DNA of 38,062 bases from Patescibacteria group bacterium (GTDB lineage: Bacteria > Patescibacteriota > Patescibacteriia > UBA10025 > JAHIVO01), in NCBI GenBank assembly GCA_018816445.1, contig JAHIVO010000010.1:1-38062 (forward strand), in the 5' to 3' direction. The translations under genes were made by a program, and so were the position numbers. Shown piece by piece: positions 13,270 to 15,328 of the stretch. The notes beneath the pieces are model-generated. The model saw only the letters and a list, made by a program, of their open reading frames with translations, was not told where the DNA came from and ran no database searches. Position 1 is the first letter of the stretch, and each line of letters begins with the position of its first letter.

Positions 13270-14088
13270 ATGGAAAAATTACCTTTACCAGAAAAACATA
13301 AAGTAATCAAAATAGGGGATAACCAGGCTGATATAATAATTGAGCCATGCTATCCTGGCTACGGAACCACTCTGGGTAATGCATTAAGACGAGTTTTACT
13401 GTCTTCATTATCAGGAGCAGCCATAACAACTGTTAAAATTAAAGGGGTTACGCATGAATTTTCTACTTTGCCGGGTATCAAGGAAGACATTGTTGAAATT
13501 TTATTAAATCTCAAGAGGATTCGTTTCAAATTACATGCTACCGATGAAACTAAAGTAACTCTTAAGGTTAAGGGAGAAAAAAATGTAAAAGCTAAAGACA
13601 TTAAATTAACTAGCGAAGTTGAAGTAATAAACTCCGACGCAGAAATTGCAACTCTATCTGATAAAAACGCTGAACTTGAAATGGAATTTACAATAAAATC
13701 AGGCAGAGGTTATTTACCTGTTGAAAATATTGAAAAGAAAAAATTAATTCTTGGTAATATTGCAATTGATGCAATATTTACGCCAGTTAAAAATGTTAAT
13801 TTTCATATACAAAATGTACGAGTCGGACAAATGACAAACTATGATAAATTAACACTTAGCATTACCACAGACGGATCAATTACACCGGAAGAATCATTAA
13901 AACAAGCAGCTCAGATTTTGCTTGATCACTTTCAGCAATTATCAATATTAGAAGAAGAAAATAAAGAAATGCCAAGCGAGATAGCTACAAAAAAGGAAAA
14001 AGATGAGAAAAAGGATGAAAATAAAAATGATATCAAGGAAGAAGCTCCAAAAATCAAGAAAAAAAGAGGACGTCCAAAAAAACAATAA
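13270..14088 (+). CDS. rpoA: RNA polymerase alpha subunit; alphaNTD present, alphaCTD not recognisable, AT-hook-like C-terminus
   Basis: YGTTLGNALRRVLLSSLSGAAITTVKIKGVTHEFSTLPGIKEDIVEILLNLK; tail ...KEEAPKIKKKRGRPKKQ*. Start trimmed from 13231 to ATG 13270. Confidence 0.95.
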   Translation: MEKLPLPEKHKVIKIGDNQADIIIEPCYPGYGTTLGNALRRVLLSSLSGAAITTVKIKGVTHEFSTLPGIKEDIVEILLNLKRIRFKLHATDETKVTLKVKGEKNVKAKDIKLTSEVEVINSDAEIATLSDKNAELEMEFTIKSGRGYLPVENIEKKKLILGNIAIDAIFTPVKNVNFHIQNVRVGQMTNYDKLTLSITTDGSITPEESLKQAAQILLDHFQQLSILEEENKEMPSEIATKKEKDEKKDENKNDIKEEAPKIKKKRGRPKKQ

Positions 14089-14094
14089 TATTTT

Positions 14095-14478
14095 ATGCGA
14101 CACCATAAAAAAAAGCTAAAAATCAACAGAGATAAAGCTCATCGTAAAGCGCTCATACGAAATCTAGTAATTTCATTTTTTAAGTATGGGAAGATTTCTA
14201 CAACAGAAACCAAGGCAAAAAGAGTCAAGCCTTATATTGAAAAACTAATTACCCTGGGGAAAAAGAATAATCTGCATGCCCGGCGTTTAATAATAAAAAA
14301 AATTAATAATATCGGTACTGCTGAAAAAATCATTAAAGATGTCTCACCGATGTTTAAGGATATAAATGGGGGGTACCTGAAAATAATTAAAATAAATACC
14401 CGTAAAGGTGATGGAGCGACAAACGTTATGATAAAATATGTAATTAATAATGATTCAGAAAAAAAGAAGACAATTTAA
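14095..14478 (+). CDS. rplQ: Ribosomal protein bL17
   Basis: MRHHKKKLKINRDKAHRKALIRNLVISFFKYGKISTTETKAKRVKPYIEKLITLGKK. Confidence 0.93.
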   Translation: MRHHKKKLKINRDKAHRKALIRNLVISFFKYGKISTTETKAKRVKPYIEKLITLGKKNNLHARRLIIKKINNIGTAEKIIKDVSPMFKDINGGYLKIIKINTRKGDGATNVMIKYVINNDSEKKKTI

Positions 14479-14809: not shown

Positions 14810-15328
14810 ATGCCTCAAATCACTAAATTAAAGAAAACTATTAAGCCAAAAAAGAAGACTGCTACACCAAAAAAGAAAAAAGTTAAGATTGTAAAAACTG
14901 AAACAGTAGAAAAAAAGAAGAATGAAGTAAGAAAAAGAAAAGATTTTATTTCTGCTATTGGCAGAAGAAAACGCGCCATAGCTCGCGTTCGTTATTATCA
15001 AAAAGGAGAGAATGAAATCATAATTAATAGCCAACCATTGGATAAATACTTTCCTCATTTTGAGCTTAATAAAATTGTTAAAGAACCCATAAATCTTACA
15101 AAAGTAGCCAATACTGGCAAGTTTAGTATAAAAGTATTAGGTGGCGGTAAACGTGGTCAGGCTGAAAGTATACGACTAGGAATAAGTAGAATAATTCTTT
15201 TAATTGATAATTCAATAAAACCTTTATTAAAGTCTAAAAAACTATTAGTCCGAGATTCAAGAGTTAAAGAACGAAAAAAATACGGTTTAAGAAAAGCACG
15301 ACGTGCACCGCAGTGGCAAAAACGATAA
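14810..15328 (+). CDS. rpsI: Ribosomal protein uS9 with a Lys-rich N-terminal extension
   Basis: SAIGRRKRAIARVRYYQKG...GGGKRGQAESIRLGISRIIL...DSRVKERKKYGLRKARRAPQWQKR. Confidence 0.95.
   Translation: MPQITKLKKTIKPKKKTATPKKKKVKIVKTETVEKKKNEVRKRKDFISAIGRRKRAIARVRYYQKGENEIIINSQPLDKYFPHFELNKIVKEPINLTKVANTGKFSIKVLGGGKRGQAESIRLGISRIILLIDNSIKPLLKSKKLLVRDSRVKERKKYGLRKARRAPQWQKR

Follow-up and report, generated by a model that had tools for sequence, protein, structure and literature searches.

The RNA polymerase alpha subunit (RpoA) encoded in the window, the whole 38,062-nucleotide stretch of Patescibacteria DNA analysed here, has lost its C-terminal domain (alphaCTD) and ends instead in a disordered charged linker followed by a basic tip, KKKRGRPKK, that carries the RGRP core of an AT-hook. 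The tip is conserved among close relatives and recurs elsewhere in the class at the protein level, while the loss of the alphaCTD is class-wide and has occurred in other Patescibacteria too. The alphaCTD is described as a general feature of bacterial polymerases, where UP elements and class I activators dock on it. That a whole class is without it means that the promoter-recognition rules of E. coli and Bacillus are inapplicable to these organisms. We propose, giving the reading even chances, that with the alphaCTD lost the charged linker and the AT-hook-like tip act as a weak bivalent, AT-preferring DNA tether of RNA polymerase. Loss of the alphaCTD was already known, and an AT-hook on RpoA is apparently the new part, since no report of such a tail was found in a search of the open-access literature.

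RpoA and its missing domain

The rpoA gene (13270-14088, forward strand) opens at a natural ATG start at 13270 and codes for a protein of 272 amino acids. It stands in the gene order S13-S11-S4-rpoA-L17, with rpsD directly 5' of it and rplQ, the gene for L17, at 14095-14478 on the same strand. Two NCBIfam RpoA equivalogs matched the protein above cut-off, NF003519 (E = 8.4e-87) and TIGR02027 (E = 1.5e-82), and both alignments covered it only to residue 256, leaving the final ~60 model positions unmatched. The N-terminal domain (alphaNTD; residues 1-225, 13270-13944) has canonical dimerisation and insert domains and was matched above cut-off by the Pfam families PF01193 (1.5e-24) and PF01000 (3.3e-32). 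In addition, the best structural matches of the AlphaFold model were solved alphaNTDs (TM-score of ~0.9 by target length), with a pLDDT of ~97 across this domain and of 43-61 across residues 231-272.

The alphaNTD profile match stops at residue 225, and what follows (residues 226-272, approximately 13945-14085) is a tail of 47 residues, ILEEENKEMPSEIATKKEKDEKKDENKNDIKEEAPKIKKKRGRPKKQ, predicted to be disordered and ending in KKKRGRPKKQ. It consists of a Glu/Lys/Asp-rich linker (residues 226-262, 13945-14055), disordered in the AlphaFold model and not conserved in sequence when compared with the tails of relatives, and of the basic tip itself (residues 263-271, 14056-14082). The original prediction described the reading frame and the tail correctly but dropped three residues, SIL, when quoting the latter; the true sequence runs ...LLDHFQQL-SIL-EEENKEMPSEIATKKEKDEKKDENKNDIKEEAPKIKKKRGRPKKQ up to the stop codon. 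Its claim that RpoA has no alphaCTD held in a profile search, as PF03118 (RNA_pol_A_CTD, the helix-hairpin-helix alphaCTD) gave no match to the protein even at E≤10. There is also no room for the domain behind the gene, as had been stated, because rplQ starts six bases past the rpoA stop codon, and a frameshifted or downstream alphaCTD is ruled out on the same ground. A separate alphaCTD reading frame was looked for as well, and PF03118 had no match above cut-off anywhere in the genome as assembled (1.34 Mb, 92% complete; a 16S gene was looked for in it and not found), its top match (E = 0.07, below cut-off) falling in an ORF with a LexA-like start. A stand-alone CdnL/CarD protein was considered as a substitute for the alphaCTD and none was found in the genome, the sole PF02559 (CarD_CdnL_TRCF) match being a Mfd-sized frame of 1052 amino acids; the Pfam families that matched RpoA did not include PF02559 either.

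The alphaCTD in the class and in the rest of the phylum

From 95 related genomes, which represent the Kerfeldbacteria/Uhrbacteria group, probably GTDB class ABY1, 89 RpoA tails could be read, and four further class RpoAs brought the sample to 93. None of these 93 proteins keeps an alphaCTD, and for 50 class RpoAs the list of families matched at E≤1 does not contain PF03118. In five class genomes (G019, G040, G048, G051 and G094), of which three have a completeness of 93% or more, the query found no RpoA; divergence, masking or a missing contig may account for this. Of the 144 genomes examined from the rest of the phylum, 128 have PF03118 above cut-off, mostly in a frame that has the size of RpoA and lies where rpoA is expected, and the RpoAs of Doudnabacteria and Berkelbacteria retain the domain. 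At least ten RpoAs from outside the class are without it (L218-L223, L226, L227, L229 and L230), all of them with Lys-rich tails that hold no GRP. On the RpoA tree, with its deep branching unresolved, the state of the alphaCTD requires at least four changes.

The domain was also encountered away from rpoA. PF03118 matched above cut-off in seven of the 95 class genomes searched, never within rpoA, and the idea of a separate alphaCTD subunit was rejected, the ORFs examined being fusions with sigma region 4 or other small ORFs and the genome of the window having none. In class genomes whose RpoA is without an alphaCTD, separate proteins fuse sigma-70 region 4 (PF04545) to an alphaCTD (PF03118), namely L174:394-1734 on the forward strand (E = 5e-21 and 3e-20 for the two families), a 467-aa protein on the minus strand of L172 (7e-15 and 3e-21) and a 200-aa protein on the minus strand of L176 (1e-11 and 8e-12). 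L177, in which the alphaCTD was the only part matched, may be a divergent fusion of the same kind, and the alphaCTD may survive outside RpoA in such sigma-like regulators. Additionally, class genome G027, the RpoA tail of which has only ~9 residues, encodes two small alphaCTD-domain proteins on the forward strand (L186:1237-1959 and L175:1246-1719), one of them with two matched stretches, and these are candidate free-standing alphaCTD proteins. An RpoA from an out-of-class genome (L228 in G235) has a divergent alphaCTD-like end, FNAKAVKILAENNITSLDDIKNASQETIDALSGLTQKALTEINKIRA, and may be an intermediate stage in alphaCTD decay; no PF03118 match was found in G235 at E≤0.001.

The AT-hook core and the variety of tails

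The tip has a GRP core with basic flanks, and the Pfam AT_hook profile aligns with residues 263-271 at 12.9 bits. This match sits below the cut-off of 17.4 and is therefore no proof by itself, and a single nine-residue motif can hardly attain that cut-off; among 50 class RpoAs, seven matched the profile at E≤1, the best at 0.023. We found the hook in 18 of the 89 class tails, spread over nine families, as RGRP[K/R] in 17 of them and as AGRPKK in one, and the 17 RGRP copies end 2-7 residues from the C-terminus. When the residues of each of the 89 tails were permuted with its composition preserved, RGRP[KR] arose in a mean of 0.001 tails and in a maximum of one over 2000 rounds, compared with the 17 observed. 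The conservation of the terminus among close relatives, which had been proposed as a check, was borne out for the GRP-cored basic tip in all four genera of its own family, and the hook is present in every sampled member of this family (4/4) and of families f18 (3/3), f11 (3/3) and f43 (2/2, with AGRPKK counted). The linkers of the tails in hook families are not alignable. Because the R-G-R-P codons vary between carriers (AGA GGA CGT CCA, CGG GGA CGC CCT, AGG GGT AGA CCT and CGC GGA CGG CCG within the window's own family), the constraint acts on the protein. Furthermore, RGRP holds 34 of the 76 arginines of all 89 tails, though Lys is used ten times more there, and the hook persists in a window of ~31% GC, where Arg, Gly and Pro codons are disfavoured.

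A DNA pattern coding for RGRPKK occurs once in the own genome, at the 3' end of rpoA. A slightly looser pattern has 57 matches in the 95 class genomes, and rpoA, which makes up ~0.1% of a genome or less, yet takes 16 of them, assigned by position to its 3' end; no RGRPKK-type pattern was assigned to rpoA by position in the 144 out-of-class genomes. A census of 306 kb (~23%) of the own genome covered 259 ORFs with a length of 100 aa or more; RGRP or GRPK occurs only in RpoA among them, and this protein, with a charge of +8 in its last 14 residues, is one of six ORFs that reach +6 or more there. Wherever it was found in RpoA, the hook sits in a protein without an alphaCTD. An assembly error in the poly-A runs near the motif was ruled out by the recurrence of frame and motif in independent genomes with different codons, and a GC-driven excess of Gly, Arg and Pro by the composition of the hook genomes, which are not GC-richer (median 0.406 vs 0.43). 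Judged from the sequences, the hook is not attributable to chance and the tip is constrained at the protein level.

The original prediction that the lineage had replaced its alphaCTD with an AT-hook needs to be narrowed: the domain is gone and the tip is kept in the family, but the hook is patchy (18 of 89 tails, leaving 71 without it) and the loss is class-wide. On the alphaNTD tree the hook requires at least 10 changes, compared with 12-18 (mean 16.5) for shuffled labels, so that it is inherited within families yet has been repeatedly gained or lost. Most hook-less class tails end in a Lys patch without GRP and some have no basic end, and near-hooks such as KKKRGKAKK, KKKRGRKPK and KRGRKKK occur among them. 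The part before the last 14 residues is acidic in 63 of 83 class tails, with a median charge of -4 vs +5 in the last 14; the tail encoded in the window has a mixed Glu/Asp/Lys linker and then the hook. Tails of 5-15 residues were found in a few relatives. Other relatives have a purely acidic tail and the RpoAs of L143, L145, L149 and L126 have nearly none, so a DNA tether is not obligatory. The sampled tails point to a class-level trait that comprises the lost alphaCTD and, usually, an acidic linker with a basic, mostly Lys-rich tip, the AT-hook being one recurrent version of this tip.

Possible roles of the tip and known systems

In the proposed tether, the retained alphaNTD would allow normal polymerase assembly, and on each alpha the position of the alphaCTD is taken by ~35 residues of flexible acidic/charged linker that end in one basic tip. 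Because alpha is a dimer, each polymerase would carry two tips, and the DNA immediately upstream of the -35 region would be within their range. We infer that the tip binds DNA, prefers the minor groove and affects transcription, and a preference for AT-rich minor grooves would make the polymerase bind more strongly to promoter DNA on the upstream side or to the nucleoid generally. A single AT-hook binds weakly. Of the two functions of the alphaCTD, the tail would take over DNA binding and not the docking of activators: linker and hook would keep the alphaCTD geometry and offer no surface for class I activators, which is consistent with a report that CPR lack ligand-binding CRP/FNR regulators (PMC12531629). 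The more far-reaching scenario, in which the class dropped its alphaCTD and repeatedly evolved a covalent HMGA/CarD-like AT-hook tail as a minimal bivalent UP-element reader, with a peptide motif substituting for a folded domain by which the core polymerase recognises promoters, is put forward tentatively, as possible rather than probable. If the tip binds promoter DNA, it provides a natural test of the minimum that suffices for reading an AT-rich element upstream of a promoter, and also a portable tail that could be grafted onto E. coli alpha for direct assay.

It is also conceivable, though we find it doubtful, that selection after the loss of the alphaCTD kept only a short positive tip for non-specific electrostatics, RGRP being interchangeable with Lys-rich ends (H1-like KKTAKK) and having no minor-groove role. 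This would accommodate the finding that 51 of the 89 class tails reach a net charge of +4 or more over their last 14 residues when only 18 tails have the hook, as well as the hook-less ends KKKATKSKKEK and KKKSTKSKKE of the sister family in the same order and the Lys-rich ends without GRP of the alphaCTD-less RpoAs outside the class. However, RGRP stays intact within families while the rest of the tail drifts, the tails contain little Arg elsewhere, and a need for charge alone would not fix the positions of G, R and P in an AT-rich genome.

We regard as improbable that the tip works on nascent RNA or rRNA, or as a polymerase-ribosome bridge in coupled transcription-translation, and not on promoter DNA. 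The location of rpoA inside a ribosomal protein operon would fit such a contact, as would the presence of the same motif (RGRPRK/RGRPKK) in the basic N-terminal extension of S9 in two relatives (L200 and L201, rpsI region, family f43), which means that the motif is able to arise on RNA-touching proteins. Yet no positive sign of an RNA partner was seen, AT-hook cores are known above all for binding the minor groove of DNA, and the tip occupies the place of the DNA-binding alphaCTD. With regard to S9, two further genomes have an RGRPKK-type pattern downstream of rpoA at the distance expected for the S9 start, and in the S9 encoded in the window (14810-15328) the N-terminal extension is rich in Lys and contains no GRP. 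Lastly, it is very improbable that the tail is a drifted, functionless leftover of the alphaCTD linker, as the nearly tail-less class members might suggest, given that the tip is constrained despite scrambled synonymous codons, conserved within families and fixed in its C-terminal position.

The AT-preferring tether can be set beside several known systems. In E. coli, the alphaCTD hangs from a flexible linker and contacts both UP elements and activators, while assembly and basal transcription do not require it (PMC8321222). The RpoA described here resembles the canonical subunit in the sequence and fold of its alphaNTD, in its position before rplQ and in its flexible linker with a terminal putative DNA-contacting element, and differs from it in that this element is a peptide motif and no helix-hairpin-helix alphaCTD is present. 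PMC8321222 also reports alphaCTD loss in Tremblaya, Hodgkinia and algal chloroplasts and, in a single sentence, in Parcubacteria; no mention of alpha, rpoA or RNA polymerase was found in the paper that it cites for the latter. These alpha subunits are similar to ours in having lost the alphaCTD in reduced genomes, whereas the passages on them in that paper describe erosion only and leave a conserved AT-hook-like replacement unmentioned. Eukaryotic HMGA proteins share the RGRP core between flanking Lys/Arg, set in a disordered chain that includes acidic residues in a stretch. They differ from the RpoA tail in their number of hooks, which is three, and in being chromatin proteins that are not attached to a polymerase subunit.

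The closest working precedent for the hook tail of RpoA is CarD of Myxococcus xanthus, an RNAP-beta-binding protein with an unfolded acidic segment and, behind it, RGRP AT-hooks; these bind the minor groove of AT-rich DNA on the upstream side of a promoter, which needs them for its full activity (PMC4374960). Like CarD, the RpoA tail combines an unfolded acidic segment with a basic RGRP hook physically on RNA polymerase, an arrangement known here from sequence. CarD is a separate beta-bound factor in which four hooks accompany a folded CarD_CdnL domain, whereas RpoA has a single hook per chain, which is covalently part of an alpha subunit whose alphaCTD is missing.
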